A stretch of DNA of 41,690 nt, from contig JAIUPL010000039.1 of assembly GCA_020160935.1 (NCBI GenBank), positions 1-41,690 of the forward strand, read 5' to 3'. The position numbers were made by a program, and so were the translations under genes. The stretch's first letter is position 1, and each line of letters starts with the position of its first letter. Shown here piece after piece: positions 53 through 41,655 of the stretch. Origin of the DNA: Bacteroidota bacterium (lineage in GTDB: Bacteria; Bacteroidota; Bacteroidia; Chitinophagales; Saprospiraceae). Under the pieces are notes generated by a model. It was not told the origin of the DNA. It did not search any database and saw only the letters and a list, made by a program, of their open reading frames with translations.

Positions 53-961
53 TTAATGCGCCAATTTCCGCAATGCCTCCCACACATCCCCGTAATCATA
101 CGTCTCCACATTCCGCCAGAAATCCAGCGTTTCGTTGAGTTGCGACAGCGACGATACGCCGAGCAGTATGCCGCTGAAACGCGGATCAAGCACCGTGTAA
201 ATCAGCCCCAGGTGGTTCATGGTTTTTAGCGGCGGGCGTACAAAATCGGTATTCAGTTTGGGCAACATTTCCCGCAGGCGTTCGAGCAAGGCCGCTGACG
301 ACTCCGGATTTCCGCCGCGTCGCAGCAAAGTGCTGTTTTCCGGATAAAGCCCGTCGATTTTAACGCCGCCAGCATTGATACCATATGCATAAAAATGGTG
401 GCTACCCTGTTGGAAAAGCGGTTCGTAACGCGCCACGTCCGACTGTAACAGGTTGTTTTTCAATTGAATATCAAACGCGAGTCCCAGGTCGTCATTGGCC
501 CGGGCGTATAAATCGGGGTACGCAATGCCTGATAAACCAGGCGTCAGTGCGTGTTCATCTTGCGCTTTTGCAAGCGATTCCAGCGAGGCGCGTATTTCCC
601 CTATGTCAGAGCGATTGTCCCAATGTATCATCAGGCAGCCCAGGTTTTGTCCGAATATACGGCTGTACTCATCGGCCATCATCAGGATGAAAGACGGCGC
701 CAGGTTGACCTCTGGCGTGCGCATGTTGTCGAGGCTGCCGACTTTCATCGTAATGTGCAAATCGTGCAATCCATGAGCCTGTACGTATTCATGCAGTATT
801 TTTTCGGAAGCCCGAAAATCTTCGGGGTTCTTGTTGATCGGATAATTGGTGGCCGCATCGACACGTCGATGGCCTGCTTTCAACCAGCGGTCGAGCAGTT
901 GAAAAGCATCCTGGCGGGAAACGTTCCAGCCCCATTGAGCGGTACCGAGTGTGAGGTGCAT
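53..961 (-). CDS. Aldo/keto reductase family oxidoreductase
   Basis: A 302-aa NAD(P)H-dependent carbonyl reductase of the AKR (TIM-barrel) family; substrate unknown, presumably cytoplasmic. The AKR catalytic tetrad is visible: Asp35 and Tyr40 in RVDAATNYP, Lys73 in TMKVGS, His113 in LMIHWDN. The C-terminal stretch LLGVSSLSQLNETL is the usual AKR cofactor-binding region. I start at the ATG at 961. The frame stays open 17 codons further upstream, but those codons (Lys/Thr/His-rich) are translated from the neighbouring inverted repeat and are not AKR-like. The gene ends 52 bases from the contig start and is complete. Confidence 0.85.
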   Translation of the reverse strand: MHLTLGTAQWGWNVSRQDAFQLLDRWLKAGHRRVDAATNYPINKNPEDFRASEKILHEYVQAHGLHDLHITMKVGSLDNMRTPEVNLAPSFILMMADEYSRIFGQNLGCLMIHWDNRSDIGEIRASLESLAKAQDEHALTPGLSGIAYPDLYARANDDLGLAFDIQLKNNLLQSDVARYEPLFQQGSHHFYAYGINAGGVKIDGLYPENSTLLRRGGNPESSAALLERLREMLPKLNTDFVRPPLKTMNHLGLIYTVLDPRFSGILLGVSSLSQLNETLDFWRNVETYDYGDVWEALRKLAH

Positions 962-1143
962 TTTTTCGTGTTTTTGTGTTTTGGTGTTTTTGTGGGGCTT
1001 CGCTCTTGGCATTTATGGATGGTTTGGTCTTGTTCGTGTTTTTTCCATTCAAACGAGAACTTTCAAACAAACTTATACCCCTACAAGTCCCAAGAGCGAA
1101 GCCCCACAAAAACACAAAAACACTAAAACACTAAAACACCCAA
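961..1143. repeat. Word-palindrome P1 (GTGTTTTN words)
   Basis: Inverted repeat filling the gap between two minus-strand genes. The left arm (about 961-1010) is made of GTGTTTTN octamers. The right arm (about 1090-1143) is the complementary AAAACAC words, with different last bases and copy number. The inner stem 984-1009 / 1090-1115 is a perfect 26 bp; the loop is about 80 nt. Confidence 0.85.
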
Positions 1144-1145
1144 AC

Positions 1146-1862
1146 CTACTCCTTCTTCCCCTTCAGCACCCGCATCGCCTGAATATACTGTTTTGCCAGT
1201 CGGGGAATATTTACCTTGCTACCCGTGGTATCGTCCGTCCATTTCACGGGCAACTCGCACATTTTCAGGCCTTTCCATTCGGCAACGGTCAGCAGTTCGG
1301 TACTAAAAAACCAGCCGTTCGACACAGCCCCGCCGTCCATCAGGGGCTGAACCAGATCGCGGCGCAGCCATTTGAACCCGCACATGCCATCGGAAAAGCG
1401 AACGCCGAGGTACATTTTGAGCATTAAATTGAACACACGTGAAGTGATTTCGCGCTTGAGGGTTCGGCCGATTACCCGCGACCGACGGTGCAGGCGGGTG
1501 CCGTACACCAGGTCAAAACCTTCGGTAGCCAGCGCATTATACGCCTGAATAAAATGCGGCAAGTCGGTAGCCAGGTCGAGGTCCATATACCCCACCATGT
1601 CGGCATCGCTTTGTGTCCAGGAAGTTTTCAGCGCCAGACCGACGCCTTTTTCCGGCACGCGAACCAGGCGGAGTTCGGCGAGTTCGGCACAGAGTTTTTC
1701 CGCGATGGCGCGGGTATCGTCGGTACTTCCATTATCAGCAATCACAATGCGCCACTGCCCCTTTTCGGGGAAATGCTGCTGTAAAAAGGCATACAGGATG
1801 CGAACCTGTCGGTCCAGCGTTTCGGCTTCATTGAGTACGGGAATGGTAACGTCGAAAGTCAT
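1146..1862 (-). CDS. Family 2 glycosyltransferase (dolichyl-phosphate mannosyltransferase-like)
   Basis: A 238-aa GT-A fold glycosyltransferase of family 2 that would move a sugar from a nucleotide-sugar to a lipid or polysaccharide acceptor; the acceptor is unknown. Visible: the N-terminal IPVLNEAETL segment, IADNGSTDDT, the acidic metal-binding DLDLATD, and GMCGFKWLRRD near the acceptor site. It has no membrane segments, as in the short DPM1-like members. The reading frame extends four codons upstream to a TTG. I choose the ATG at 1862 because a good promoter lies at 1897-1927 and leaves a leader of about 28 nt. It lies downstream of no other gene, so it probably starts its own transcript, which may continue into the aldo/keto reductase. 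Confidence 0.85.
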   Translation of the reverse strand: MTFDVTIPVLNEAETLDRQVRILYAFLQQHFPEKGQWRIVIADNGSTDDTRAIAEKLCAELAELRLVRVPEKGVGLALKTSWTQSDADMVGYMDLDLATDLPHFIQAYNALATEGFDLVYGTRLHRRSRVIGRTLKREITSRVFNLMLKMYLGVRFSDGMCGFKWLRRDLVQPLMDGGAVSNGWFFSTELLTVAEWKGLKMCELPVKWTDDTTGSKVNIPRLAKQYIQAMRVLKGKKE

Positions 1863-1896
1863 GTGCGCGCGCAAAGTGAAATACAGTAGAGCGCGG

Positions 1897-1927
1897 CAAA
1901 AGTAAGGCGACCGGGGTCAATGACAAG
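1897..1927 (-). promoter_or_regulatory. Bacteroidota-type promoter of the glycosyltransferase
   Basis: On the minus strand, CTTG (1924-1927) and TACTTTTG (1897-1904) are separated by exactly 19 nt. This matches the Bacteroidota consensus of a TTTG-like -33 element and a TAnnTTTG -7 element. Predicted transcription start is near 1890. Confidence 0.65.
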
Positions 1928-2146: not shown

Positions 2147-2815
2147 ATGAGTGATCTTTTGAAAAAATTCAAGTCGGTTTTTATTGTTGAGGATGAAAGT
2201 GGCGCATCTGCCCAACCGGCCTCACCAGCACAAAGCAATCCGGTGGCACAATCCGAGGCGCCTGTTGCCGAGACACGGAGAGAAACTGCCGGCAGCGGTT
2301 CTGTTACCGATAAATTCGTACAGATTCTTTTGGGCGCCCTGGAAAAAAACAACCAGCAGGGGTTCGATTATTTCGAATTTCGGCAGGCGCTGAAAAACCT
2401 GGAAAAAATGCCCATGGACGAAGCGACGCGTTTTCACTCCGCTTATGCCATGGCACAAACCATGAATGTAACACCTGCCAAACTGGTAGAATCCGCTCAG
2501 TTTTATCTGAATATCCTGGCAGGCGAACAGTCCAAATTCAACGAAGCACATGCCCAGCAGCGCGCCAAACTCATCGGCAATCGAGAAGAAGAGGTGCGCA
2601 ACCTGGAAGCCATGATCCAGAGCAAAACCGAACAAATCAAACAACTGACCCAGCAAATTGAGGAACACCGCCGCAACAGCGAGCAGATTCGCAATGAAAT
2701 TGGAGACAGCACCGTAAAAATTGAAAATACCAAAGCCGATTTCGAAGCCACTTTCGCGAATGTAAGCGGCCAGATTCAGGCGGATATTGCCAAGATTCAG
2801 GAACACTTGAAATAG
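2147..2815 (+). CDS. Coiled-coil protein, first gene of envelope operon
   Basis: A 222-aa soluble protein that I do not recognise by name. It has a short N-terminal segment MSDLLKKFKSVF, an Ala/Pro/Ser/Glu-rich linker (about 20-50), a compact helical domain (about 52-125, containing FDYFEFRQAL), then a long heptad-like coiled coil (about 125-222). No signal peptide or membrane helix is visible, so it is probably cytoplasmic. It is the first of four same-strand genes with membrane and envelope features (to 6037), which suggests a partner or scaffold role for the PspA-like protein two genes downstream. Its stop codon TAG is followed without a spacer base by the inverted repeat P2. A weak -7-like TTACTTTG lies at 1993-2000. 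Function not assigned. Confidence 0.8.
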   Translation: MSDLLKKFKSVFIVEDESGASAQPASPAQSNPVAQSEAPVAETRRETAGSGSVTDKFVQILLGALEKNNQQGFDYFEFRQALKNLEKMPMDEATRFHSAYAMAQTMNVTPAKLVESAQFYLNILAGEQSKFNEAHAQQRAKLIGNREEEVRNLEAMIQSKTEQIKQLTQQIEEHRRNSEQIRNEIGDSTVKIENTKADFEATFANVSGQIQADIAKIQEHLK

Positions 2816-3001
2816 GGTTGAGTAGTTGAGGGGTTGAGTAGTTGAGGGGTTGAGTAGTTGAAGGATGAGAGGTTGAGATGTTCCCACTCAAAAAGTGGAC
2901 AATACTTTCCATTTCTTACACGGCCATTCCTCAACTTCTCATCCCTCAACTACTCAACCCCTCAACAACTCAACTACTCAACCCCATCAACCTTATCAAC
3001 C
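2816..3001. repeat. Word-palindrome P2 (nnGTTGAG words)
   Basis: Starts on the base after the stop codon. The left arm 2816-2880 alternates GGGTTGAG and TAGTTGAG octamers; the right arm 2929-3001 carries the complementary CTCAACnn words in different number. The loop 2879-2926 contains a small hairpin CCACT/AGTGG (2884-2898) and is related to the loop of P4. Confidence 0.85.
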
Positions 3002-3017
3002 AACAACACACACAACA

Positions 3018-3212: not shown

Positions 3213-3223
3213 TCGTTGGAATG

Positions 3224-3258
3224 CCCCTCAACTACTCAACCCTCAACTACTCAACCAA
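3224..3258. repeat. Half word-element (right arm only)
   Basis: CCTCAACTACTCAAC words of the P2/P4 family in C-rich orientation only, between 3212 and 3282. No G-rich left arm is present, so this is a solo arm. Confidence 0.7.
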
Positions 3259-3281
3259 CTTCACCATCAATACATCTAGAA

Positions 3282-4313: not shown

Positions 4314-4320
4314 ACTGGTA

Positions 4321-4442
4321 GGGTTGAGGAGAGGAGTTGAGGGTTGAGAAGTTGAGATGTGGCCATTTAAGAAATGGAAAATATTGCCCATTTTTTTAAT
4401 GACCTCATCTCAACTTCTCAACCCTCAACTACTCAACTCTCC
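4321..4442. repeat. Word-palindrome P4 (GTTGAG words)
   Basis: Begins 8 nt after a stop codon. Left arm 4321-4359, right arm about 4405-4442, same word family as P2. The loop 4360-4407 aligns to the loop of P2 best in the reverse-complement direction (37 of 48 positions by hand, no gaps). Confidence 0.85.
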
Positions 4443-4471: not shown

Positions 4472-6037
4472 ATGGCACGATTAACCTCGTTTTCAAAATT
4501 CATCATAACCCTGCTGATTGTCGGCGGGCTTTATTTCATAGGCAGTTATTTTCTGAATAAAACCAAAACCGGGCAAGACCTGAAAGGCAAAGCCGCCAAC
4601 GAACAAACAGGTGGCGGGCTCTTCGGAGGTGGCTCCAAACCCGATGAAAATACCATCGGCGTAGGTGTTGTTACCTGGGGTGGTTATGCCGGCGGACAAT
4701 ACTGGAACAAAGGTTTTGCCGCCAATGAAGAAAGCCGATTTTTTAAGGAAAACGGTTTCAAGGTAGATTTTAAAATCCTCGACGACCCTACCGCCAGCCG
4801 CAATGCCTGGAAAAATGACGAAGTAAACCTGCTGTGGGCCACCATCGATGCGCTGCCCACTGAAATGCCCGGACTGGCCGACTACGACCCGGTAGTATTG
4901 TTCCAGGCCGACTGGTCGCGGGGTGGCGACGCCATCGTGGCACGCAGGGGCATTACTTCCGTAGGCGACCTGCGCGGCAAACAAATTGCCGTAGCCGAAA
5001 TGTCACCCTCGCACTCTTTCCTGATCTGGCTGCTCAGCGCGGCCGGCATGACTACCAACGACGTAAAAGTTGTAGGCGTGCCGTCGCCGGTAGAAGCCGC
5101 AGATGCATTCAAAGCCAATAACGTGGATGCAGCTGTTGTGTGGTCGCCATTCGACGAAGAATGTGTACAAAAAGTACCCGGCGCGCGCGTACTTCAAAGC
5201 ACCCGCAACGCTTCCAACATCATTGCCGACGTGTTTATTGCCAAACGCAAATGGGTGGAAGCCAACCGCGAACGCGTTCAGCAACTCTATGAAGGCTGGA
5301 TGAAAGGCGCCGCTGAAATCAACCGCAGCAGCAGCGCCAAACAGGAAGCCGCTGCCATCCTCGCCGACGCTTTCGACGGATTCACAAAAGACGATGCCCT
5401 GAAAGCCATCGACAATGTACGCCTCTGTACCCATGGCGACAACGTCAACTTCTTCGGCCTCAACCGCAGCAACTACAAAGGGGTAACGGGAGAAGACCTG
5501 TACAGCCGTATGACGAAAGAATACCGCAATGTCGGCGTACTCAAAAGCGGCGATGTGGTGCCGCCATGGTCAAAAACGGCCTGGTTCAGCACCGTTGAGC
5601 GTTCCAGCCTGAGCGGTCCGGAAAATGCTGCGGAAGGTCAAAAATCGTTTACCAGTATTTCCGAGAGTGAAGCAAAAGGTAAAGAAGCCGTCGCCACCAA
5701 ACGTGTGAGTATTTCTTTCCGCTCCGGAGAATTTATGCTCGACGACAATGCCAAATACATCGTCGACAATGAAATGGTGCCCATCGCCAAGGCATTTGCC
5801 AACAGCCGCATCCGCGTGGAAGGCAACACCGATAATGTAGGTAATGCCGCCGCTAACGTATCGCTGTCTAAAAAACGCGCACAAGCCGTGATCGATTACC
5901 TCGTGAAAGAGTACGGCATGCCACGCAGCCGATTTGTGGCGGTCGGCAATGGCCCCGACAATCCTGTCGCCGATAACGGCAGCGAAGACGGCCGAAGAAA
6001 GAACCGGCGGACGGACTTTGAATTGGTCGAGGAGTAG
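4472..6037 (+). CDS. Anchored NMT1/TauT-like binding domain fused to OmpA domain
   Basis: A 521-aa protein with an N-terminal membrane anchor (about residues 10-30, no lipobox), a Gly-rich linker, and a periplasmic binding domain of the nitrate/taurine/NMT1-THI5 type (about 60-340: VVTWGGYAGGQYW, then GDLRGKQIAVAEMSPSH and NNVDAAVVWSPFDEE). A C-terminal OmpA peptidoglycan-binding domain (about 415-521) shows VEGNTDNVG, SKKRAQAVIDYLV and NRRTDFEL. Binding domains of this class normally feed ABC importers, yet no permease or ATPase is nearby. The architecture therefore suggests a sensor or tether that reads a small molecule in the periplasm while holding the cell wall. Last of the four-gene operon. 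Domain calls are firm; the role is inference. Confidence 0.85.
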   Translation: MARLTSFSKFIITLLIVGGLYFIGSYFLNKTKTGQDLKGKAANEQTGGGLFGGGSKPDENTIGVGVVTWGGYAGGQYWNKGFAANEESRFFKENGFKVDFKILDDPTASRNAWKNDEVNLLWATIDALPTEMPGLADYDPVVLFQADWSRGGDAIVARRGITSVGDLRGKQIAVAEMSPSHSFLIWLLSAAGMTTNDVKVVGVPSPVEAADAFKANNVDAAVVWSPFDEECVQKVPGARVLQSTRNASNIIADVFIAKRKWVEANRERVQQLYEGWMKGAAEINRSSSAKQEAAAILADAFDGFTKDDALKAIDNVRLCTHGDNVNFFGLNRSNYKGVTGEDLYSRMTKEYRNVGVLKSGDVVPPWSKTAWFSTVERSSLSGPENAAEGQKSFTSISESEAKGKEAVATKRVSISFRSGEFMLDDNAKYIVDNEMVPIAKAFANSRIRVEGNTDNVGNAAANVSLSKKRAQAVIDYLVKEYGMPRSRFVAVGNGPDNPVADNGSEDGRRKNRRTDFELVEE

Positions 6038-6040
6038 TTA

Positions 6041-6244
6041 TCGGTTATTGGTTATCAGGGGTAGTAAGGGGCAAGGGGCGAGGGGCAAAAGGCAAAGGGC
6101 AAGGGGCAAAAGGCAAAGGGCAAGAAGCAAGAGGCAAATGGTGGCAGAAATATCAAATTTGCCCTTTGCCCCTTGCCTTTTGCCCCTTGCCTTTTGCCCC
6201 TTACCCCTTGCCCCTTACCACCCCTAATAACCAATAACCAATAA
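6041..6244. repeat. Compound word-palindrome P5 (RRRGCAA heptamers inside GGTTATT words)
   Basis: Lies between convergent genes. Inner left arm 6068-6137 is ten in-register heptamers of form RRRGCAA (one reads GGGGCGA). Inner right arm 6159-6214 is eight of form TTGCYYY (one reads TTACCCC). They are enclosed by outer arms of GGTTATTG / CCAATAAC words. Loop about 21 nt. Confidence 0.9.
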
Positions 6245-6245
6245 C

Positions 6246-7598
6246 CTACTGGCATCCCATGTCGTGCTGCGATTGCGAATCATTGTTCGGAAAGCAATTG
6301 CCCGACATGGTTACCGCAGGTGTGTAGCGCTTCATATTCGGGTCGTACAGGCCATTTTCTAGAAAATCAACCAGGTCGTTGATTTCGTTTTCCGTCAGGT
6401 TCAGCGGGTGCAGCAGCGGCGTTACCTGGCTGGTCGGCACTTCCGGGTTTTCCGGCAAACCGATATTGAAGTAATTCACCACATCGCGCAGTGAGGTTTT
6501 GCTGGCGCCGTGGAAATAGAACCCTACATTTTTCAGGTTGTACAGTTGCGGCACTTTGAATTTGTGCATATCCTCATCGCGGCCGGTAAAGCCACCGCGA
6601 CCCAGGTTGCGTTTGTCGGTTGGGCCCGTACGGAACACATCATATCCGCTTTGGTACAGGTTTTTCACACCGAGGGCAAAGAAACGGTGCGGCTGACTGT
6701 TGAGGGAAGGACTGCTGTGGCAACTGGAGCAGCCTGCTTTTCCGAAAAACAGCATAGCGCCATTTTTCTGCTCATTGGTCATGGCAGCCTTGTCGCCTTT
6801 CAGCCACAACTGGAATGGCGCTTCATTGGTAAGTATCGTACGGAAATAAGCGGCGATGGCAAATGCTGCCATTTTGCGCGTATAGCGCTGGCTTTCAGGC
6901 ACTTCCGGGAATGCGGCATCGAACATGGCTGTGTAGCCCAGCGAGTCGGTAACGGCTTTGTTTACCACCTGGCGGTGTACGATAAGTGCGCGGTTGTTGT
7001 TGGCTTCCAGGCCTTGCAGGCCGTCAAAATTGATTTCCACCAGTGTATCCTGGTGCCACACCGATTCAGTGCCTTCATTGGCGCCAAAAGAACCGAAAGT
7101 ACCCGCCCAGAGGGCATTGGTCACAAATGCTGTATTGATCACCGGCAATGGACGCGCACCTTGTGCATCTACCTGATCGCCGAGATACAAGGGATTTTTG
7201 TTGCGCCCCTCACCGCTAACACCAAATCCGAGAGCACCATCGGCTACGCCCTGGAAACGGCCTGCTGTGAACCCGCGCTCGGCATTGTGGCAACTGCTGC
7301 AGGAATAGGTTTCTTTTGAAACAGGATTGTTGGGTTCGAGCCCCAGGCCCGTTTCGTGAAACAACAGGCGCCCTAAAGTTACCTTGATCGGCGTGATCGG
7401 GTTTTTCACATCCTGATTGGGGATGTTGGCATAATCGTCGCTCTGCGGCAAAATAAAGTAGGAGTACGAACCTGATGGAGAGCGGCTGTTCAGGGTTTCT
7501 TCCAGGGCCTTGTCTTCCAGGATGGAGACTTCATGCACACAGGACAAGAAGTAGCCTGCAAAAGCAAGCAAGAGCAAAAAGGTAGAAGTTTTTTTCAT
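6246..7598 (-). CDS. Di-heme cytochrome c peroxidase / MauG-family lipoprotein
   Basis: A 450-aa c-type cytochrome of the bacterial CCP/MauG family, anchored outside the inner membrane. The signal peptide MKKTSTFLLLLAFAGYFLSC ends in a lipobox Cys. Two heme-attachment motifs CSSCH are present: CSSCHNAERG in the N-terminal half and CSSCHSSPSLN in the middle. The C-terminal signature LTENEINDLVDFLENGL is typical of the family. Such enzymes reduce peroxide or do heme-based oxidations; the substrate here is unknown. I chose the ATG at 7598 over an upstream in-frame GTG (7631) because it begins the signal peptide. Transcribed divergently from the lipoprotein gene at 7972. Confidence 0.88.
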   Translation of the reverse strand: MKKTSTFLLLLAFAGYFLSCVHEVSILEDKALEETLNSRSPSGSYSYFILPQSDDYANIPNQDVKNPITPIKVTLGRLLFHETGLGLEPNNPVSKETYSCSSCHNAERGFTAGRFQGVADGALGFGVSGEGRNKNPLYLGDQVDAQGARPLPVINTAFVTNALWAGTFGSFGANEGTESVWHQDTLVEINFDGLQGLEANNNRALIVHRQVVNKAVTDSLGYTAMFDAAFPEVPESQRYTRKMAAFAIAAYFRTILTNEAPFQLWLKGDKAAMTNEQKNGAMLFFGKAGCSSCHSSPSLNSQPHRFFALGVKNLYQSGYDVFRTGPTDKRNLGRGGFTGRDEDMHKFKVPQLYNLKNVGFYFHGASKTSLRDVVNYFNIGLPENPEVPTSQVTPLLHPLNLTENEINDLVDFLENGLYDPNMKRYTPAVTMSGNCFPNNDSQSQHDMGCQ

Positions 7599-8502: not shown

Positions 8503-8519
8503 GGTTTGCATTTGCAGTG

Positions 8520-8616
8520 CTACGCCTTGTGGCCTTTGTGAAACCTTGGTGGCCTTTGTGGTAAAATTTTTTAACCACTAAGTGCACCAAGGTTTCACCA
8601 AGGACACAAAGCGTAG
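8520..8616. repeat. Word-palindrome P6 (CTTTGTG / CCTTGGTG words)
   Basis: Left arm 8520-8562 (CTACGCC...TTGTGGT) and right arm 8573-8616 (AACCACT...GCGTAG) pair with interruptions around a 10-nt AT loop. It is clearly the same element type as P14 at 25.0-25.1 kb. Confidence 0.85.
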
Positions 8617-8659
8617 CGTACACCTGCTTTTTCCGTATCATTGGCATTTCAAATCAACC

Positions 8660-9736
8660 ATGCCACCGCATCCAATGGAACAGAAACGGCATTTGCGTGT
8701 CCTTTCCAAAACCTGGGAAACCGACGACACGGCTACGTTCGTGCTGGAACCGACCGACGGAAAAGCGTTCGAGTACCTGCCCGGGCAATACCTGAGCCTG
8801 ATATTTGCATCCAATGGAAAGGAAGAGCGGCGCGCTTATTCGTTCAGTTCCTGCCCGGGTGTCGATCCGCATCCTGCCATTACGGTCAAACGAGTGCCCA
8901 ACGGCGCGTTTTCCAATTACCTTTTGCAGCATGTGCAGCCCGGTGATGTGCTGGAATCAATCGAGCCGAATGGCCTGTTTCTGTTGCCGGAAAAACCGGT
9001 TCAAAACCTGTTTTTTATTGCCGCTGGCAGCGGCATCACGCCAGTGTTGAGCCAGTTGAAATCGCTGCTGCTGCAAAACAGTCCAAAAACACAGCGTATC
9101 GTCTTGTTGTATGCGAATCGGGACAGCCGAAGCACGATTTTTAAACAACAGATCGATCAATGGATGGAGCAGTTTCCCGATCGCTTCGAGTGCATATATT
9201 TTTTCAGCCGGGAAAAAAATGCCGAACATGCGCTCTACCGCCACCTGAACAACGAACTGCTGGAAGATTTGCTGCGCGACAGGTTCTTTGGGGGCCGTTT
9301 CAGTGCCGCCGACCGCCGCAACACCTGGTTTTACCTCTGCGCCCCCGTGCCCATGATGCGTATGGCGCGTATGACCTTGCGCACCCTCGATTTTCCGGAG
9401 GAACACATCCAACAGGAGACGTTTCTGCCGGAAAAACCACCCCAACCGCGCCCGAGGGATACTTCCATCCTGCACCATATTACCATTTATGGCCTGCAAG
9501 GCGCCACCGAATTCCACACCTATGAGGGTGAAACCATTCTGGATGCGGCTCTTCGGCAAGGTATCGCCCTGCCCTACACCTGCAAAAGCGGTGTGTGTTT
9601 CTCTTGCCTCGCGCGCTGTACGTCGGGGCAGGTGGAGGTAGCGTTTACAGATGCCTTGAAGCAGGAAGGGCCGGGGAGTATGGTGAATACGTGTATTGGG
9701 TATGCGGTAAGCGGGGAGGTGGGGCTGGCGTTTTAG
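8660..9736 (+). CDS. PaaE-type ferredoxin reductase (FAD, NAD(P)H, 2Fe-2S)
   Basis: A 358-aa electron-transfer flavoprotein that passes electrons from NAD(P)H through FAD to a plant-type 2Fe-2S cluster, as in the reductase of phenylacetyl-CoA epoxidase and related oxygenases. Domains in order: FAD-binding barrel with RAYSFSS, NAD(P) domain with GSGITPVLSQL, and a C-terminal ferredoxin domain with CKSGVCFSC plus a distal Cys in NTCIGY (C-x4-C-x2-C spacing). The oxygenase partner is not in this window, so the acceptor is unknown. Start: the ATG at 8660 (a second ATG at 8675 is possible). The frame runs upstream to a GTG inside palindrome P6, which should not be used. Confidence 0.85.
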   Translation: MPPHPMEQKRHLRVLSKTWETDDTATFVLEPTDGKAFEYLPGQYLSLIFASNGKEERRAYSFSSCPGVDPHPAITVKRVPNGAFSNYLLQHVQPGDVLESIEPNGLFLLPEKPVQNLFFIAAGSGITPVLSQLKSLLLQNSPKTQRIVLLYANRDSRSTIFKQQIDQWMEQFPDRFECIYFFSREKNAEHALYRHLNNELLEDLLRDRFFGGRFSAADRRNTWFYLCAPVPMMRMARMTLRTLDFPEEHIQQETFLPEKPPQPRPRDTSILHHITIYGLQGATEFHTYEGETILDAALRQGIALPYTCKSGVCFSCLARCTSGQVEVAFTDALKQEGPGSMVNTCIGYAVSGEVGLAF

Positions 9737-9759
9737 AGCGTGAGAGCGTGAGAGCGATG
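9735..9759. repeat. Half word-element (GTGAGAGC words)
   Basis: Two to three GTGAGAGC words begin at the TAG stop codon (its last bases are part of the first word). No complementary arm follows. Related to the GTGAGARR words of P23. Confidence 0.55.
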
Positions 9760-17396: not shown

Positions 17397-17467
17397 TTGC
17401 TTCTTGCCTCTTGTTTTTTGCCCCTTGGCTTTTAGAAATTTGACAACTTTTTGAAAGTTGTCAAATT
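17397..17467. repeat. Half heptamer element plus 14-bp hairpin after atpG
   Basis: Five C-rich heptamers of the TTGCYYY type (17397-17431, two altered) are followed by a perfect 14-bp hairpin 17437-17450 / 17454-17467 with a 3-nt loop. The hairpin overlaps the atpG stop codon. No G-rich arm of the heptamer family is present. Confidence 0.7.
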
Positions 17468-18362: not shown

Positions 18363-18467
<105 letters not shown>

Positions 18468-20059: not shown

Positions 20060-20178
20060 TATCAATGATGAATGATGAATGATAAATGTTGAGTGATGAA
20101 CGATGAATGATGAATGATGAATGCCGCTTTAGATTACTCTAAATGTGTTATTCATCATTCATTATTCATCATTCATCA
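20060..20178. repeat. Word-palindrome P10 between atpH and atpA (GATGAAT words)
   Basis: Left arm about 20061-20122, right arm about 20148-20180, same heptamer as P9 with some variant copies (GATAAAT, GAGTGATGAAC). The loop TTTAGATTACTCTAAATGTG differs from P9 by a few bases in the same orientation. It reaches the atpH stop codon. Confidence 0.9.
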
Positions 20179-20739
20179 TTAAAATTCTTTGACATACAGG
20201 TTTTTAGAGAACTGTGCTCTGAGTTGATCCAGTTTGTGTGCTGCGCTGGCGTCGTACCGTTTGTTATCGAACTCCAGGATGAAGCCGCCGATCAGGTCGG
20301 GGTCTACGGAAGTCTGGATGTCGATATTTTCGTTGGTAGCGCCGCTGGCAACAATTTTTTTGCGCAGGTCTTGCAGCACAGCGTCGCTCATGGGCGTAGC
20401 CGTGGTAACCCGCACGGTGGTGATTTTATTGAGGCTTTTATATTGTTCGCCGAATTCGGCGGCAATTTCCGGCAGGTAGTTTTCGCGGTTTTTGGTAATC
20501 AGCAGTTTGAGGTAGCCCATGGTGAGGGCGTCGAACTGCGACTTGAACAGCGCGTCCATAGCAGCCGCTTTCCGGTCGTTGGTGATCACCGGATTTTTCA
20601 GCATCAGGTACAGGTCGCGGTTGCGTACGGCTTGTTGCAATACCTGGATATCGGCATTTACCTGCGCCAGTTTACCTTGCTCGACGGCCAGTTCGATCAG
20701 CGATTTGGCGTAACGGGTGGCTATACGTGTGACACTCAT
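20179..20739 (-). CDS. atpH: ATP synthase F1 delta subunit
   Basis: A 186-aa peripheral-stalk subunit (OSCP/delta). It opens with VTRIATRYAKSLIELAVEQGKL, the usual N-terminal helix bundle, and ends with the C-terminal signature DPDLIGGFILEFDNKRYDAS. Links the F1 alpha subunits to the b subunits. ATG at 20739. Flanked on both sides by inverted repeats (P10 and P11). Full length. Confidence 0.96.
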   Translation of the reverse strand: MSVTRIATRYAKSLIELAVEQGKLAQVNADIQVLQQAVRNRDLYLMLKNPVITNDRKAAAMDALFKSQFDALTMGYLKLLITKNRENYLPEIAAEFGEQYKSLNKITTVRVTTATPMSDAVLQDLRKKIVASGATNENIDIQTSVDPDLIGGFILEFDNKRYDASAAHKLDQLRAQFSKNLYVKEF

Positions 20740-20764: not shown

Positions 20765-20895
20765 GATGAATAGGTTGATGAGGGTTGATGAGGGTTGATG
20801 AGGGTTGATATTCAGCCGCTCGGGGTAAGGGTAGAATTTTCATTCCTCGAGTGGTTGAATATCAACCCTCATCAACCCTCATCAACGCTTATCAC
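20765..20895. repeat. Word-palindrome P11 between atpF and atpH (GGTTGATGAG words)
   Basis: Left arm is about four GGGTTGATGA decamers (20765-20807). Right arm is TCATCAACCC words (20856-20895). The stem next to the loop, GGGTTGATATTCA / TGAATATCAACCC, is perfect. The loop region 20808-20862 is related to that of P16 in reverse complement. Confidence 0.9.
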
Positions 20896-20900
20896 CCCCT

Positions 20901-21413: not shown

Positions 21414-21464
21414 AGAAGTGAAGAATTGTGATTTTTTATAAATGGATCGGAGTCAGTTAAGTTT

Positions 21465-21488
21465 TTGTTGGCGAGGACGCCAACAAAT
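21465..21488. repeat. 10-bp hairpin between atpE and atpF
   Basis: TTTGTTGGCG (21465-21474), loop AGGA, exact complement (21479-21488). It lacks repeated words. It could be an mRNA-processing or attenuation hairpin in the atpE-atpF spacer. Confidence 0.6.
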
Positions 21489-21572
21489 GTCAAGGTCAAA
21501 CTCCGATGAATGGTCAAAAAATCGGGGCGTTGAACAGACCAACCGTCGCTCGCAGCCCCGAAAGGGCATTTC

Positions 21573-21936
<364 letters not shown>

Positions 21937-25042: not shown

Positions 25043-25148
25043 ACTCTACGCATTGTGTTCTTTGTGAAACCTTGGTGTCCGTTGTGGTTAAATTTTTTAC
25101 CACGAAGAACACCAAGGTTTCACAAAAGACACTACGCGTAGAGTAGAC
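25043..25148. repeat. Word-palindrome P14 (CTTTGTG / CCTTGGTG words)
   Basis: Left arm 25043-25091 (ACTCTACGC...TGTGGTTAAATT), right arm 25100-25148. The outer ends ACTCTACGC and GCGTAGAGT pair, and the right end carries the core CGTAGAGTAGAC (25137-25148). Closely similar to P6. Confidence 0.85.
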
Positions 25149-26832: not shown

Positions 26833-26978
26833 GGGTGTTTGAATAGGATTTTTGAGATTTTAAGGATTAGAAGGATTGCCGACTTCGAGTTGACAATTTT
26901 TTAAATTTTTCCAATTGTCAACTCGAAGTCGGCAATCCTTCTAATCCTTAAAATCCCAAAAATCCTGTTCAAATACTC
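26831..26978. repeat. Word-palindrome P15 (AGGATTnn words), 43-bp perfect stem
   Basis: Starts in the TGA stop. Left arm 26831-26898 and right arm 26913-26978 are complementary over about 66 bp with few mismatches. The inner 26856-26898 / 26913-26955 is a perfect 43 bp with a 14-nt AT loop. Words of the AGGATT type occupy the outer half; the inner 20 bp are unique sequence. Confidence 0.92.
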
Positions 26979-28125: not shown

Positions 28126-28135
28126 AGTTGTCGGT

Positions 28136-28322
28136 TTTTGGGGTTGATAAAGGTTGATGAGGGTTGATAAAGGTTGATGAGGGTTGATGAGGGTTGATAA
28201 TCAGCCACTCGATGAATGAAATATTCAACCCTTACCTCGAGCCGTCATTTATCAACCCTCATCAACCTTTATCAACCCTCATCAACCCTCATCAACCCTC
28301 ATCAACCCTCATCAACCCCCAA
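28136..28322. repeat. Word-palindrome P16 (GGTTGATGAG / GGTTGATAAA words)
   Basis: Left arm about 28136-28199 with six words alternating GGGTTGATAAA and GGTTGATGA types. Right arm about 28249-28322 with seven or more complementary words in different order. The loop region 28197-28252 aligns with the reverse complement of the P11 loop. Confidence 0.9.
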
Positions 28323-28351
28323 AAACCCATAACCCAACAATTCTCACACAC

Positions 28352-30314: not shown

Positions 30315-30459
30315 GTTATTAAGTTATTGGTTATTGAGTTATTAGGGGTGATAGGGGACCATTTGTTGATATGTCTGGCATCCATTTTTCAGCAGCCAAA
30401 CATATGTACAAATGGTCCCCTATCACCCCTAATAACTCAATAACCAATAACTTAATAAC
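30315..30459. repeat. Word-palindrome P17 with 50-bp perfect stem
   Basis: 30315-30364 and 30410-30459 are exact reverse complements over 50 bp. About 14 further base pairs follow toward the loop with three mismatches. The outer part is GTTATT-type heptamers; the inner AGGGGTGATAGGGGACC is unique. Confidence 0.95.
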
Positions 30460-30576
30460 AAAAATGAAATGGGGCCCAACCTTACCGGCTGCGCCCCATC
30501 ATTAAACTACAAACGCTTCTTGAAAATCCTGTATCAGGATTTATTATTCTTTGTCATGGTTCCAGTGAGCAGTCCT
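30460..30576. other. Gap with small hairpins
   Basis: Between P17 and the end of the GIN gene: a stem ATGGGGC / GCCCCAT (about 30475-30500) and AATCCTG-TAT-CAGGATT followed by T-rich sequence. The latter could terminate plus-strand transcription from the GH97 gene. No gene is seen. Confidence 0.35.
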
Positions 30577-30611
30577 CGCTTCTCACTTCTCACCTCTCGC
30601 TTCTCACCTCT
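30577..30611. repeat. Half word-element (CACCTCT heptamers)
   Basis: Five in-register heptamers CGCTTCT, CACTTCT, CACCTCT, CGCTTCT, CACCTCT, running into the 3' end of the GIN gene so that its TGA stop sits within a word. No complementary arm. Confidence 0.65.
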
Positions 30612-31239: not shown

Positions 31240-31307
31240 ACAGTTAGCAAGATTTGTAGTGAATGCATGATGGGAGAGACAGTGGGGAGGAAGCAAGGTT
31301 GCTTTGG

Positions 31308-31456
31308 GAGTTATGAGTTATGAGTTATGAGTTATGAGTTATATTCACGTTGCTATTGGCTTCATTATTAGAGAGACCAATAGCAACGTGAATATAACTC
31401 ATAACTCATAACTCATAACTGTCGGACGACATAACTCATAACTCATATCTCATCCC
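31308..31456. repeat. Word-palindrome P19 (GAGTTAT heptamers) with interrupted right arm
   Basis: Five tandem GAGTTAT copies (31308-31342) precede a unique stem. 31316-31359 and 31377-31420 are exact complements over 44 bp. The right arm has four ATAACTC copies, then GTCGGACGAC (31420-31429), then more copies up to the acetoacetyl-CoA synthetase stop. Confidence 0.92.
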
Positions 31457-33441
31457 TCCCTCTTTGCCATTGCGATAAAAAAATCCATCGCTTCCGGGTT
31501 GCGCATGGAATCGCGGTTGTAAGCCTTGTCGAGCGGTTTGTGCTGGAGGATTTTTTTCACCGGCGTTTCCATCTTTTTTCCCGAAATGGTGTAGGGTATA
31601 TCGGGTATTTCAATGATAGCATCGGGCACATGGCGCGGGCTGTAGGCGGTACGCAGCGTAGTGTTGATGCGTTTTTTCAAATCGTCGTTCAGGGCAGCAT
31701 TGGGGGTGAGCGTTACAAACAGCGGCATCCAGTCGGTTCCATCGGCGTATTCCAGGTTGATGATCAGGCAGTCTTTGATTTCCGGAATGGCATCCAGGGC
31801 CCGGTAGATTTCTGCTGTGCCGATGCGAACTCCTTGCCGATTGAGCGTGGCGTCAGAACGGCCGAGGATTACCAGGCTGTCACGCTCGGTGATCTGGATC
31901 CAGTCGCCATGGCGCCATACCCCCGGGAAGGTATCGAAATAACTGTTGTGGTATTTTGAACCATCCGGGTCATTCCAGAAAAAAACGGGCATGGAAGGCA
32001 TGGGTTGCGTGACCACCATTTCGCCTACTTCGCCTACCGGTACCGGATGGCCGTTTTCGTCCCAACTTTCCATGGCACAGCCCAGGCAACGACACTGTAT
32101 TTCACCCTGGTACACTGGCAGGAGCGGATTGCCGCCCACCCAGGCCGTACACACATCCGTGCCGCCGGCCATGCTGCTCAGCCAGACATCCGATTTCACA
32201 TGTTCGTACACCCAGGCGAAGGCTTCGGGCGGCAGCGGCGAACCCGTGGAGCCAATGCTGCGCAAACGGGAAAGGTCGAATTGTCGACCGGGCTCCAGCG
32301 CTGCTTTCATGCAACTCACCAGAAACGGCGCGCTGGTACCAAAATGCTCGATGCCCGTTTTTTCGGCCAGTTCCCACAGCACATTCAGGTCAGGAAATCC
32401 AGGACTGCCATCGTACAACACAATGGTAGCGCCGGCCAGCATGGACGCCAGGGTGAAATTCCACATCATCCAGCCGGTGGTAGAAAACCAGAAAAAGCGT
32501 TCGCCGGGATGAATATCATTGTGCAAGTGCGTGTATTTCAGGTGCTCGAGCAAATTGCCGCCATGCGAATGGGTAATGGCTTTGGGTATGCCCGTGGTGC
32601 CCGAAGAATACAATACCCAAAGCGGGTGATTGAACGGAACGGGCAGAAAGGAAATCTGCGCATCTGCATGATTTTCAATCACGTCGCTCCAGGAAACTAC
32701 TGTTTTTCCATCGCATTCAAAACCTGCCGATTCGTCGAGGTAGGGGATAAAAAGCACTTGCTGCACCGTAGGCAGCAGGCTACACAATTCGTGCAGCGTC
32801 TCGCGTTTGTCAAACATTTTGCCGCCATAGGAATAACCGTCTACGGCAATCAGCACCTTCGGTTCGATTTGCACAAAACGGTCGGCCACACTGGCTGCCC
32901 CGAAATCGGGCGAACAACTCGACCAAACCGCCCCAATCGACATGGCAGCCAGCACCGCCACCATGGCATGGGGCGAATTGGGCAGGTAGGCGGCAATTCG
33001 GTCGCCGGGCTGTACACCGCTTTGCCGGAAAAATTGGGCCATTGATGCCGTTTGCCGTTCCAGTTCTGCCCAGGATATTTCCGTCAGTTGATGGCGCTCG
33101 CTTTGAAAAAGAATGGCCGGATGTGCAGCGTTTTTTTGCCGAAAAATGTGTTCGGCATAATTGAGTGTACCACCTTCAAACCATTGATAATGAGGCATTT
33201 CATCCCCTTTCAACACTTGTTGATATGGCGTGTGAAGTATTACCTGAAAATACGCCTGCTGGCTTTCCCAGAAATCGGCTATCTGCTCGGCCGACCATTT
33301 CCACAGCGCATGGTAATTTTCAAAAACAAGTTTCTTTTCACGTTCCAGCCATTGCATGTATTGCTGCAAATGGCTGCGCTGCATTCCAGCCGGCGTGGGG
33401 CGCCAGCGAATAATGGGTGTGGTGTGGGTAGGCTCGGGCAT
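31450..33441 (-). CDS. Acetoacetyl-CoA synthetase
   Basis: A 663-aa ANL-superfamily adenylate-forming ligase, acetoacetate-CoA ligase type (AacS): activates acetoacetate with ATP and CoA. The AMP-binding motif is YSSGTTGIPK, then STTGWMMWN, GGTDVCTAW, the hinge VILGRSDATLNRQGVRIGTAEIY (about 550-575) and the catalytic C-terminal Lys in SGKKMETPVKK. Length fits AacS (about 650 aa). It would let the cell use ketone bodies or PHB products, and its product is a substrate of the HMG-CoA-synthase-like enzyme at 25.4 kb, although the genes are not adjacent. ATG at 33441; the 43 upstream codons are translated P20 words. Confidence 0.9.
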   Translation of the reverse strand: MPEPTHTTPIIRWRPTPAGMQRSHLQQYMQWLEREKKLVFENYHALWKWSAEQIADFWESQQAYFQVILHTPYQQVLKGDEMPHYQWFEGGTLNYAEHIFRQKNAAHPAILFQSERHQLTEISWAELERQTASMAQFFRQSGVQPGDRIAAYLPNSPHAMVAVLAAMSIGAVWSSCSPDFGAASVADRFVQIEPKVLIAVDGYSYGGKMFDKRETLHELCSLLPTVQQVLFIPYLDESAGFECDGKTVVSWSDVIENHADAQISFLPVPFNHPLWVLYSSGTTGIPKAITHSHGGNLLEHLKYTHLHNDIHPGERFFWFSTTGWMMWNFTLASMLAGATIVLYDGSPGFPDLNVLWELAEKTGIEHFGTSAPFLVSCMKAALEPGRQFDLSRLRSIGSTGSPLPPEAFAWVYEHVKSDVWLSSMAGGTDVCTAWVGGNPLLPVYQGEIQCRCLGCAMESWDENGHPVPVGEVGEMVVTQPMPSMPVFFWNDPDGSKYHNSYFDTFPGVWRHGDWIQITERDSLVILGRSDATLNRQGVRIGTAEIYRALDAIPEIKDCLIINLEYADGTDWMPLFVTLTPNAALNDDLKKRINTTLRTAYSPRHVPDAIIEIPDIPYTISGKKMETPVKKILQHKPLDKAYNRDSMRNPEAMDFFIAMAKREG

Positions 33442-33620
33442 GAGTGGATGGAGGGTTGAGAGAGTTGAGGGGTTGAGAGGGTTGAGGGGTTGAGAGGGTT
33501 GAGGGGTTGAGGGGTTGAGGGGTTGAGAGGTTGAGCGGGTTGAGGTTCGGCCAGAGTGGTCGCCCCTCAACTACTCAACCCCTCAACTCTCTCAACCCTA
33601 TCAACCTTTATCAACCCAAG
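33442..33620. repeat. Word-palindrome P20 (GGGTTGAG words)
   Basis: Left arm about 33450-33545: about ten GGGTTGAG/AGGTTGAG words with a 9-nt variant. Right arm 33563-33620: complementary CTCAACCCn, ending in ATCAACC words of the P16 family. The short loop includes CCAGAGTGG. Confidence 0.88.
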
Positions 33621-35258: not shown

Positions 35259-35260
35259 CT

Positions 35261-35692: not shown

Positions 35693-35700
35693 AAAGACAA

Positions 35701-36060
35701 GAGCGAGAGGCAAGAGGCAAAGGGCAAGGAGCAAGGAGCAAGGGGCAAGAGGCAAGGAGCAAGAGGCAAAAGGCAAGGAGCAAGAGGCAAAAGGCAAGGA
35801 GCAAAAGGCAAGGAGCAAGAGGCAAAAGGCAAGGAGCAAAAGGCAAGGGGCAAGAAAGCCGTTTAACCTCCGTTTTAACTTTTGCCTCTTGCTCCTTGCC
35901 TCTTGCTCCTTGCCTTTTGCCTCTTGCTCCTTGCCCTTTGCCTCTTGCTCCTTGCCTCTTGCTCCTTGCCTTTTGCCTCTTGCTCCTTGCCCTTTGCCTC
36001 TTGCTCCTTGCCTCTTGCTCCTTGCCTCTTGCCCTTTGCCCCTTGCTCCTTGCCTCTTGT
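35701..36060. repeat. Word-palindrome P21: 46 RRRGCAA heptamers
   Basis: The largest element. The left arm 35707-35853 is 21 heptamers in perfect register, each xyzGCAA with xyz one of GAG, GGA, AAG, AGG, GGG. The right arm 35882-36056 is 25 of the complementary TTGCYYY form from the same five-triplet set. Word order and counts differ between arms. Loop about 28 nt. Confidence 0.95.
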
Positions 36061-39956: not shown

Positions 39957-39965
39957 TTTTAAAGT

Positions 39966-40103
39966 CCTGAGTCGTAAGTCATGAGTCCTGAGTCCGTAGA
40001 GTAGACCTGTTATCTTTGGTTTGAATTATCAAGTACGCATAGAGTAACTGGTCTATTCTACGGACTCAGGACTCAGGACTTACGACCCAGAACTCAGGAC
40101 TTA
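39966..40103. repeat. Word-palindrome P22 (CCTGAGT heptamers) with CGTAGAGTAGAC core
   Basis: The left arm is four in-register heptamers CCTGAGT, CGTAAGT, CATGAGT, CCTGAGT (39966-39993), then CGTAGAGTAGACC (39995-40007). The right arm has GGTCTATTCTACG (about 40050-40062), then ACTCAGG, ACTCAGG, ACTTACG, ACCCAGA, ACTCAGG (40064-40098). The loop also holds CGCATAGAGTAAC. Confidence 0.92.
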
Positions 40104-40110
40104 GTTTATT

Positions 40111-41466
40111 ATGAAACACCTCCTCTTCTCCCTGCTCCTCCTTTTCTCCTGCACCCGCCGCCATCAGGTTGTGAAGGAAACCATACACAGTTCCTACGAC
40201 TCCCAACTGGAATACAAGCCTTACACGCCCAAGCCGGGTGACCGGACGATCTCGCGGAAAAAATACCAGGAGCAACTGTACGGATTCTGGCTGGGGCAGT
40301 GCATTGCCAACTGGACCGGCCTCGTAACCGAAATGGATAAAATCGGTAATATCGGCGAGATAAAAACGGGCAAATTCTATACCCGCGCCGACTGGGGGCA
40401 ACCCGATCAGCCCAGTATCTGGGGGCAAGGAAAACCCAGCGACCTCTCTCCGGTGATCGATTTTGTTTTCAGAGGCCCCGATGAAATCTGGGGATCTGAC
40501 GACGATACGGACATCGAATACATCTACCAGGATTTGTTATTCACCAATAAAACCTGTGTACTGACCGGCGAACAAATCCGGGATGGTTGGCTGAAACACA
40601 TCAAAGCCGAGGAAGAAAACTACTTGTGGGTATCCAATCAAAAAGCATTCGATTTGATGAAAGCAGGCATGGTGCCGCCTGCCACCGGCGACCCAGCCAA
40701 CAATCCGGAATACGACATGATCGATGCGCAACTGACGACGGAAATTTTCGGGCTCTTTGCTCCTGGTCGGCCGGATATTGCCTTGAAAATGGCCAAATTG
40801 CCGATTCAGACCACAGCCCGCAAGGAATCGGAATGGATTTCCGGTTTTTACGTCAGCATGTATTCCCTCGCGTCGGCATCCGACGAGTCTAAACCGATGA
40901 AAACCAGGATTTTGTGGATGGCTGATGAGGCGCGCAAAACCCTTCCGGAGGGTTCCTATCCTGCAAAAATGTACGATTTTGTAAAAAGCAGGTACTTGGC
41001 CAAAGTGCCCTGGGAGCAAACCCGTGATGAAGTGTATCAACGTTATCAGGTAGATCAGTCCGACGGATACAATATGACCTCCCGCAACAGGTATTGCAAT
41101 GGCTGTTTTGCCGCAGGTATCAATTTCGCATCCAGCATGATTAGCCTGCTGTACGGCGAAGGCGACATCCAGGAAACCATTAAAATCGGCGCGCTAGCCG
41201 GCTGGGATTCCGACAACCCTACCGCCACCTGGGGCGGCTTGTTGGGCTTTATGCTTGGAAAAAAAGGCGTGGAAAAGGCGTTCGGCCGCACTTTTTCAGA
41301 GCGCTACAACATTCACCGCACCCGCATCGGCTTCCCCAACAATGGCATCGATTTTTTCCAGAATATGGCGCTCACCGGCGTCTATATCGTCGATCGGGTG
41401 GTGCAGGAGCAAATGGGCGGCGGCGTGGATTTGTGGAGAGACGAGTGGCTGGTGCCTAGAGAGTGA
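40111..41466 (+). CDS. ADP-ribosylglycohydrolase-family lipoprotein
   Basis: A 451-aa protein of the ADP-ribosylglycohydrolase fold, carrying a lipoprotein signal (MKHLLFSLLLLFSC, Cys14). The metal-site acidic residues are in DDDTDIEY, the C-terminal motif AGWDSDNPTATWGGLLGF is the family's Asp-rich second site, and YGFWLGQCIANWTGL is the N-terminal Gly-rich helix. Typical members remove ADP-ribose from proteins or nucleosides in the cytoplasm; here export to the envelope is unusual and suggests an extracellular or periplasmic substrate. ATG at 40111, 8 nt after the P22 right arm. The TGA stop lies in the first GTGAGARR word of P23. Confidence 0.85.
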   Translation: MKHLLFSLLLLFSCTRRHQVVKETIHSSYDSQLEYKPYTPKPGDRTISRKKYQEQLYGFWLGQCIANWTGLVTEMDKIGNIGEIKTGKFYTRADWGQPDQPSIWGQGKPSDLSPVIDFVFRGPDEIWGSDDDTDIEYIYQDLLFTNKTCVLTGEQIRDGWLKHIKAEEENYLWVSNQKAFDLMKAGMVPPATGDPANNPEYDMIDAQLTTEIFGLFAPGRPDIALKMAKLPIQTTARKESEWISGFYVSMYSLASASDESKPMKTRILWMADEARKTLPEGSYPAKMYDFVKSRYLAKVPWEQTRDEVYQRYQVDQSDGYNMTSRNRYCNGCFAAGINFASSMISLLYGEGDIQETIKIGALAGWDSDNPTATWGGLLGFMLGKKGVEKAFGRTFSERYNIHRTRIGFPNNGIDFFQNMALTGVYIVDRVVQEQMGGGVDLWRDEWLVPRE

Positions 41467-41655
41467 GAGGGTGAGAGAGTGAGAGGGTGAGAGAAGTGAG
41501 AGAGTGAGAGGGTGAGAGGGTGAGAAAGTGAGAGGGTGAGAGTTCGTAGAGTAGACCGCTCTAACCTAAAAAACTTCGAGTAGAGTGGTCTACTCTACGA
41601 ACTCTCACTTTCTCACCCTCTCACTTCTCTCACCCTCTCACCCTCTCACTTCTCT
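41463..41655. repeat. Word-palindrome P23 (GTGAGARR octamers) with CGTAGAGTAGACC core
   Basis: The left arm is GTGAGAGG/GTGAGAGA/GTGAGAAA octamers with one 9-nt slip (41463-41542). The core CGTAGAGTAGACC (41545-41557) pairs exactly with GGTCTACTCTACG (41587-41599). The right arm is CTCTCACY words to about 41655. The stop codon of the upstream gene is inside the first word. Confidence 0.93.

Follow-up and report, generated by a model that had tools for sequence, protein, structure and literature searches.

Palindromic repeats with arms of tandem words in the intergenic gaps of a Saprospiraceae genome

The DNA described here is a stretch of 41,690 nucleotides (C15:1-41690; "the window" refers to this whole stretch) from a Saprospiraceae genome of 5.84 Mb (51 contigs, 97.9 % complete), the gene gaps of which contain inverted repeats with arms composed of tandem words of 7-10 nt. 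We consider it somewhat better than an even chance that these word palindromes are non-autonomous intergenic repeat families that spread from gap to gap, keep their palindromy at the level of DNA and are confined by selection to the gaps 3' of genes. An inverted-repeat scan of the window gave 17 merged elements and five solo or mixed arms were read from the sequence, in line with the original prediction of inverted repeats in at least 16 gaps and about six solo or mixed arms. The grammar proposed at that time, i.e. words with a constant and a variable part, a G-rich 5' arm, uneven copy number in the outer parts, a precise inner stem and contact with stop codons, also described the elements correctly, and G exceeded C in the 5' arm of all 17. 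The same words were reused at distant positions as had been noticed: GTTGAG words at 2.8, 3.2, 4.3 and 33.5 kb, GCAA words at 6.1, 17.4 and 35.7 kb and GTGAGAG words at 9.7, 21.9 and 41.5 kb.

Abundance, word families and position relative to genes

Genome-wide element statistics were obtained from seven stretches of this genome with a total length of 841,689 bp, some of the shorter ones having been picked for known matches. These contained 151 inverted-repeat elements, of which 146 were mostly outside called genes and five mostly coding. The two long contig stretches (63 elements in 400 kb and 42 in 300 kb) extrapolate to approximately 800-900 elements in the genome, and all seven stretches to approximately 1,050. 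Inverted repeats scoring at least 18 numbered 166 in 400 kb of contig C43 compared to none in one Markov-3 simulation. The 20-mer GGGTTGATAAAGGTTGATGA of the GTTGAT family had 402 genome-wide matches with at most three mismatches and the GAGTCYGTAGAGTNNACC motif had 132, with no matches for either reversed control. GTTGATGAGGGTTGAT was found in 369 exact copies in this genome and in six of 198 other genomes sampled from the family, with 3 to 30 copies in four of these six; its reversed control was present in one of 199 genomes. Separate assemblies of other species contain such elements too, which makes an artefact of assembly unlikely. The claim that most gene gaps are occupied was correct for the window and did not extend to the 842 kb, where 136 of 412 gaps of at least 80 nt were occupied, counting merged inverted-repeat elements only and leaving out solo arms.

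Eleven bins accommodated 121 of the 151 elements and 30 were left unsorted. The bins are regular expressions written after viewing the elements, with the first match winning, so that a few elements are misplaced, e.g. one GTGAGAG element falls in the AGTC bin. Ten of the bins are defined by words, and at least ten word families coexist in the genome. They include AGTC followed by 3 nt, GTGAGAG followed by 1-2 nt, GTTGAT followed by 4 nt, GAGTTAT, GGTTATT, GCAA followed by 3 nt and CGGATT/AGGATT, and one bin pools CTTTGTG and GTGTTTT words. The GCGCC bin is defined by its core and lacks tandem words. Cores are mostly specific to a family, while the GTAGAGT core is found with both AGTC and GTGAGAG words and again in several further bins; as a 7-mer it was central in 33 of the 151 elements. 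ACTCTAC occurred in 33 elements of five bins and CACTCTA in 14 elements of seven bins, and the TAGAGT core recurred in several. A universal core motif was considered and rejected, as no 7-mer was found in all families.

The AGTC family seems to be a discrete unit, its two arms of five words each flanking the GTAGAGT core. Exactly five words were present in 45 of 77 AGTC arms, and the word counts of the two arms were equal in 21 of 38 elements, an agreement better than in 5000 permutations, which is favoured by a few of the 38 being GTGAGAG elements with a single AGTC. Most AGTC flanks past the last word were unmirrored. AGTC/GTAGAGTACACC elements were also found in two records titled Saprospiraceae (L134 and L152).

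Among gaps of at least 80 nt, an element was present in 43 of the 64 between convergent genes, 74 of the 232 between tandem genes and 19 of the 116 between divergent genes. Since genes were called with our own hexamer caller, in which starts are less sure than stops, gene start positions are approximate. The median distance of stop-side edges (n=169) to the stop codon was 2 nt, with 67 of them overlapping the gene end and 60 being within 10 nt, which agrees with the earlier observation that elements begin at or within stop codons. Start-side edges (n=106) had a median distance of 52 nt, and 15 overlapped the gene or lay at most 10 nt away. In the 842 kb the 5' arm contained more G than C in 120 of 151 elements, more C than G in 21 and equal amounts in ten. 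The 127 elements whose arms reach 30 nt or more were read inward from their outer edges: in 92 of the 254 arms a stop codon appeared in all three frames within 36 nt, compared to 30 of 254 with the polarity reversed and 11 % with shuffled arms. The G-rich 5' arm mostly supplies stop codons and selection may therefore explain the polarity. The GGTTATT, GGCAA, GCGCC and TTTGTG bins deviate from this pattern.

The elements of the window are given below, with the source of each in brackets (scan, inverted-repeat scan; sequence, reading of the sequence).

963..1139, word palindrome, GTGTTTTN words, core GGCTTCGCTCTTGGCATT (inverted repeat score 38; sequence)
2815..2991, word palindrome, GTTGAG words (scan; sequence)
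3225..3256, solo C-rich arm, CTCAACTA words (sequence)
4331..4441, word palindrome, GTTGAG words; loop approximately the reverse complement of the 2.88-kb loop, by eye (scan; sequence)
6037..6246, word palindrome, GGTTATT words outside and GGCAAGG words inside (scan; sequence)
8519..8617, word palindrome, CTTTGTG words (scan)
9735..9756, solo arm, GTGAGAGC words (sequence)
17399..17464, solo TTGCC arm (17399-17433), then a short TTTGACAACTT palindrome (sequence)
18368..18465, word palindrome, AATGATG words, separating the alpha and gamma genes of ATP synthase (scan; Pfam and related genomes)
20064..20180, word palindrome, AATGATG words; loop resembles that of the 18.4-kb element (scan; sequence)
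20774..20898, word palindrome, GTTGATGAGG words (scan; sequence)
21822..21934, mixed arms in which a GTGTTTTG array precedes a CTCTCACT array, the two being mutually non-complementary (sequence)
25043..25144, word palindrome, CTTTGTG words, ACTCTACG outside (scan; sequence)
26838..26973, word palindrome, AGGATT words (scan)
28135..28324, word palindrome, GTTGATGAGG/GTTGATAAAG words (scan; sequence)
30315..30459, word palindrome, GGTTATT words, core AGGGGTGATAGGGGACCAT (scan; sequence)
30575..30611, solo arm, CTCACTT words (sequence)
31306..31460, word palindrome, GAGTTAT words (scan; sequence)
33452..33617, word palindrome, GGGTTGAG words (scan; sequence)
35699..36059, word palindrome, GGCAAGA words, the longest of the window (scan; sequence)
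39963..40094, word palindrome, AGTC+3 words, GTAGAGT core (scan; sequence)
41458..41655, word palindrome, GTGAGAG words, GTAGAGT core (scan; sequence)

A Pfam family (E<=0.001) was obtained for 18 of the 20 translated frames tested from the window, ATP synthase subunits, a peptidase and sugar enzymes among them. The frame 3291-4391 on the minus strand, one of the two without a Pfam family, is on the opposite strand to the gene chosen by the caller. The contig begins with 25 consecutive G (positions 1-25), which probably arose as an artefact of sequencing or assembly.

Words in the gaps of related genomes

The gaps flanking the ATP synthase alpha gene carry AATGATG, GGTTATT, GTGAGTA, GAGTTAT, TGATGAG, AATGTGG, GTTGAT or GAGTGAATG words in those congeners whose contigs extend to them, and in some of these plain short hairpins or nothing instead of words. 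Near this gene G016 and G006 are approximately 85 % identical to the present genome, other long matches being 66 to 86 % identical. Lined-up gaps of these three genomes were compared for gaps of up to 700 nt, matches of at least 45 % identity and gene pairs adjacent in both genomes, with a lenient definition of occupancy (an inverted repeat of at least 14 or a 6-mer occurring at least four times). Both gaps were occupied in 17 of 28 cases between this genome and G016, 12 of 25 between this genome and G006 and 11 of 19 between G016 and G006. The wordy pairs had a common word in 5 of 17, 4 of 11 and 3 of 11 cases, respectively, compared to 12, 20 and 16 % in non-orthologous gaps. Lined-up gaps thus mostly carry different words, and sharing is in mild excess. 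The association of occupancy gave Fisher p values of 0.020, 0.653 and 0.117 in the same order; with both gaps at least 60 nt long these became 0.179, 1.0 and 0.371, and positional conservation was rejected. The shared occupancy may reflect saturation.

At closer range, in 150 kb of G007 and G009 (approximately 96 % identical), lined-up word elements keep their word and loop while the length of the array changes. Between the two genomes, and with the same words, one arm had 4 against 16 words, and 257 against 33 bp were unaligned. A GAGTTAT palindrome pattern was found in at least 118 stretches of Genome Taxonomy Database (GTDB) contigs, with titles from about seven phyla among the 80 matches listed. 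In a sample of 148 Bacteroidota genomes the direct array GAGTTATx3 was present in 3 of 147 genomes besides this one; for the reversed word the count was 5 of 148, a control that concerns direct arrays and not the palindrome. As the direct arrays were no commoner than the reversed word, common descent of the GAGTTAT word across phyla was dropped.

A gap of a different character corresponds to window positions 21414-21572. Nine congeners have a near-identical GCGAAGCGGTTGGCGACGC hairpin there, unlike the word gaps, and this genome and G016 carry another GC-rich hairpin.

Matching of the arms and the proposed mechanism

The two arms of an element resemble each other more than they resemble the arms of other elements. 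The elements for this comparison were picked by core alone and circularity was thereby avoided. Among 50 elements the identity of the 28-nt word arms was 0.871 within and 0.553 between elements and that of the inner 12 nt 0.802 and 0.516, respectively (0/1000 permutations for both), a contrast inflated by the mixture of word families. In the AGTC subset (33 of the 50) the values were 0.924 and 0.847 for the word arms and 0.854 and 0.622 for the inner 12 nt (0/5000). The 33 aligned elements had 166 cells changed on both sides compared to 62.7 after shuffling (0/500), and the covariation score was 0.239 compared to 0.100. By our own count the two-sided Watson-Crick changes were 80 of the transition type and 81 of the transversion type, the latter of which cannot pass via G.U. 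On the transcribed strand of 76 elements in tandem gaps, G.U and A.C mismatches were equally frequent (66 and 66), so that an excess of G.U over A.C, the signature of RNA structure, was not found in this set; the corresponding counts were 42 and 52 in convergent and 12 and 14 in divergent gaps. The transversion-type changes together with G.U being no commoner than A.C are therefore read as upkeep of the arms at the level of DNA.

Each family consists of arms of tandem words round a family core, and we propose that units would be copied between gaps, as is suggested by the recurrence of identical words and core at tens to hundreds of sites. Arms would change length through slippage of words, consistent with the length changes seen at approximately 96 % identity. 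Arm complementarity would be kept in DNA, changes being found in both arms, most likely by template switching in the hairpin (quasipalindrome correction) or by birth of the elements as complete palindromes. Purifying selection would clear elements from genes and promoters, and they would consequently accumulate from the stop codon onward, where they are observed. Birth and loss would be fast enough for congeners mostly to carry other words in the same gap.

Several observations weigh against this interpretation. No empty and filled pair of this genome's families was seen, and for that reason copying between gaps is something we infer. Flank duplications were at the permuted level and no enzyme was tied to the word families. 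In G009, two adjacent word-like palindrome units carry 8-bp and 9-bp duplications (by eye; contig C3, at the place matching A 129007) and are absent from G007; a transposase route is therefore possible for some units. The residual mismatched cells in the 33 aligned elements were 41 G.U, 60 A.C and 85 other. The shuffles used for the arm and covariation comparisons keep relatedness, so that whole inheritance from diverged palindromic sources would also pass. Mirroring of the AGTC flanks was 0.427 compared to 0.298 when permuted (the highest of 200 permutations being 0.365), and 8 of 38 flanks were mirrored at 0.7 or more, approximately four of the seven inspected consisting of further words; the ends of the unit are therefore not always sharp. 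Between G007 and G009 only changes of arm length were seen and no arm-to-arm copying event was caught, and the best-followed length change was confined to one arm, which indicates that coordination of the arms is not immediate.

A tentative alternative, which we find possible but on balance doubtful, is a self-templating repeat in which slippage would mutate the arms, hairpin template switching would copy new words across and complete palindromes would seed further gaps with no need of a transposase, so that the words would evolve like a lexicon on a lasting architecture. In such a scheme, losing the palindrome nuclease SbcCD would be permissive. In this genome SbcD gave no match and SbcC no more than two, of approximately 26 bits; it is the one genome among 19 without an SbcD match, some match having been found in all 18 other genus genomes searched (over the cut-off in G004, G008 and G012, and in G014 with neighbouring pieces joined). 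The SbcC profile is insensitive, as it passed the cut-off in none of 30 genomes and in one of 14 controls. Loss of SbcCD as the driver was rejected: G016 and G006, with weak SbcD matches, are equally dense in elements (19.4 and 23.5 per 100 kb, respectively, compared to 18.1 in this genome), and G018 (SbcD match of 22 bits) had no elements in 20 kb. Such a loss would be at most permissive.

It is unlikely that the elements are RNA elements, i.e. stabilisers or processing hairpins of mRNA 3' ends under selection for mRNA structure, as would be suggested by their placement downstream of genes and contact with stop codons. The equal numbers of G.U and A.C mismatches argue against this, and no Rfam match was found in the window. 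A U-tract was lacking just outside the arm, where TTTTT within 12 nt was found in none of 76 elements and at least six T in 9 nt in two, T-runs within the arms being uncounted. The role at mRNA 3' ends suggested in the original prediction thus gained no support from the wobble comparison or from a canonical terminator tail. Folding of the stretch that separates the alpha and gamma genes of ATP synthase speaks for an RNA role: in 15 of 16 genus genomes, this one included, the gap outperforms every one of 60 mononucleotide shuffles, and the sequences of these gaps are unrelated. The exception is G011, and the gap of G012 is trivial (24 nt, -2.5 kcal/mol). Such strong folding was seen in 7 of 14 measurable genomes for the gap that flanks the alpha gene at its other end, past which the delta subunit is probably encoded, and in 4 of 16 for a third gap. 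Because the alpha-gamma folding persists with unrelated sequences, some gaps may profit from a hairpin, with any palindrome sufficing, an interpretation based on one gap. No conserved signal was detected in the words themselves.

Routes of copying and relation to known systems

The enzyme of repetitive extragenic palindromic (REP) elements, the REP-associated tyrosine transposase (RAYT, Y1 transposase), could mobilise palindromes in single-stranded form and without target duplication. Hairpins, Y1 genes and the lack of target duplication would suit such a route, which we nevertheless hold to be improbable. Two Y1 matches (PF01797) were found in this genome compared to at least ten word families, and the counts of PF01797 (2 here and in G016, 3 in G006, 6 each in G005 and G012) did not follow element density in the small samples available per genome. 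At 13 of 16 inspected Y1 loci, out of 53 genus matches, an inverted repeat lay within 700 nt, mostly a GC-rich hairpin, and in the inspected portion of these repeats no main word family was recognised. A RAYT origin, one of the routes first suggested, is thus not supported. Pointing the other way, the full Y1 gene of this genome (L001) adjoins a palindrome whose outer side carries tandem words, other tandem repeats stand beside the hairpin at five loci or more (L001, L266, L268, L355 and L359), and the AGTC core contains GTAG. Against a link, the motif beside this Y1 gene, GGGCGTTGCCC, is rare, with four copies in 842 kb.

The Y1 genes of this genome, G016 and G006 (L001 at approximately 1276-1370; L356, L358 and L359) have a similar hairpin core alongside, AGGGCG..CCCT with CCCTTTCAGGGC or CCCCTTCAGGGC. 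These hairpins may be the genuine REP elements belonging to that group of Y1 genes.

Quite unlikely, in our view, is an origin of the elements as miniature inverted-repeat transposable elements (MITEs) of DDE transposases, bounded by terminal inverted repeats and flanked by duplicated target sites. The G009 units with flanking duplications described above would fit, as would a TA-flanked MITE end motif found 19 times in 400 kb of G009 (L093-L112, C3) and not at all in 400 kb of the approximately 96 % identical G007 (L073-L092, C3), an excess that is a recent burst. In the present genome, in contrast, direct repeats of at least 6 nt flanked 8 of 151 elements (5.3 %, permuted 4.8 %) and those of at least 7 nt one of 151 (permuted 1.0 %). 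Carriage by viruses was also searched for with two patterns: 16 viral contigs had one single-sided 18-mer match each, none matched the GTTGATGAGG pattern and no palindromic copy was found. A conserved signal, e.g. DNA-uptake words, which in Neisseria are found at terminators, or sites of a nucleoid protein, would account for the high copy number, gap placement and inverted pairs and is nonetheless very improbable, since many words occur together, differ mostly at lined-up gaps and, in the case of GTTGATGAGGGTTGAT, are present in so few genomes of the family.

If the preferred interpretation of spreading, DNA-level palindromic families is correct, fast palindromic repeats can rewrite much of the 3' intergenic DNA of a bacterium within one genus, and conserved hairpins 3' of genes need not mean conserved sequence signals. 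The elements would also provide a natural system with hundreds of replicates for measuring homogenisation of palindrome arms.

Published systems are compared here as they are described in the accessible parts of the cited papers. REP elements are extragenic palindromes of high copy number, mostly downstream of genes (PMC3733652, PMC6006769), and the present elements are similar in these respects. REP elements are palindromes of 20-40 bp with an unpaired GTAG or CGTC (PMC3733652, PMC6006769), whereas the units here are longer (best arms of 18-149 nt among the 80 of 151 elements listed), have word arms, contain GTAG paired inside the AGTC core and had no RAYT link that we found. Template switching makes the arms of inverted repeats alike in yeast (PMC8604942) and has been assayed in Escherichia coli (PMC7202029). 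These studies concern reporters or single sites and yeast genes (PMC7202029, PMC8604942), while here the same correction would act on many dispersed families.

Direct TAACTGA repeats occur in Beggiatoaceae, Cyanobacteria and Bacteroidetes, and Microcystis has a range of repeating heptamers (PMC4679880). As with the present elements, these are intergenic heptamers distributed patchily over phyla, and their indels are mostly in 7-nt steps. They differ in being direct repeats (one indirect in the main genome) located mostly just upstream of start codons, and cored palindromes are not described in the accessible text (PMC4679880). Among published systems the Xanthomonas heptamers come nearest to the present elements. 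The likeness to tandem heptamer repeats is closer than first thought, as Xanthomonas has 70-75 inverted pairs of GGGAATC heptamers per genome near or over stop codons, the GGGGA(C/T)T-type heptamers of Nostoc have only few inverted pairs and Calothrix has three heptamers (PMC4692102). With the short tandemly repeated repetitive (STRR) sequences and the Xanthomonas type the elements share tandem intergenic words of approximately 7 nt (7-10 nt here, with five of 151 elements mostly coding), a G-rich sense (120 of 151), closeness to stop codons (median 2 nt) and inverted pairs. Whether cored word palindromes belong to that kind is a matter of judgement. One word per genome was studied in Xanthomonas and Nostoc (PMC4692102), compared to at least ten word families in one genome here, and family cores, coordinated arms and other words in lined-up gaps are additional features of the present elements. 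Searches of the literature with exact words gave no paper and topic searches no account of multi-word palindromes, most of the subscription literature being outside their scope. Inverted heptamer pairs (Xanthomonas) and several heptamers per genome (Calothrix, Microcystis) were thus already known, and what the present work adds are palindromes of words with cores, coordinated arms tested against the RNA signature, and other words in lined-up gaps.

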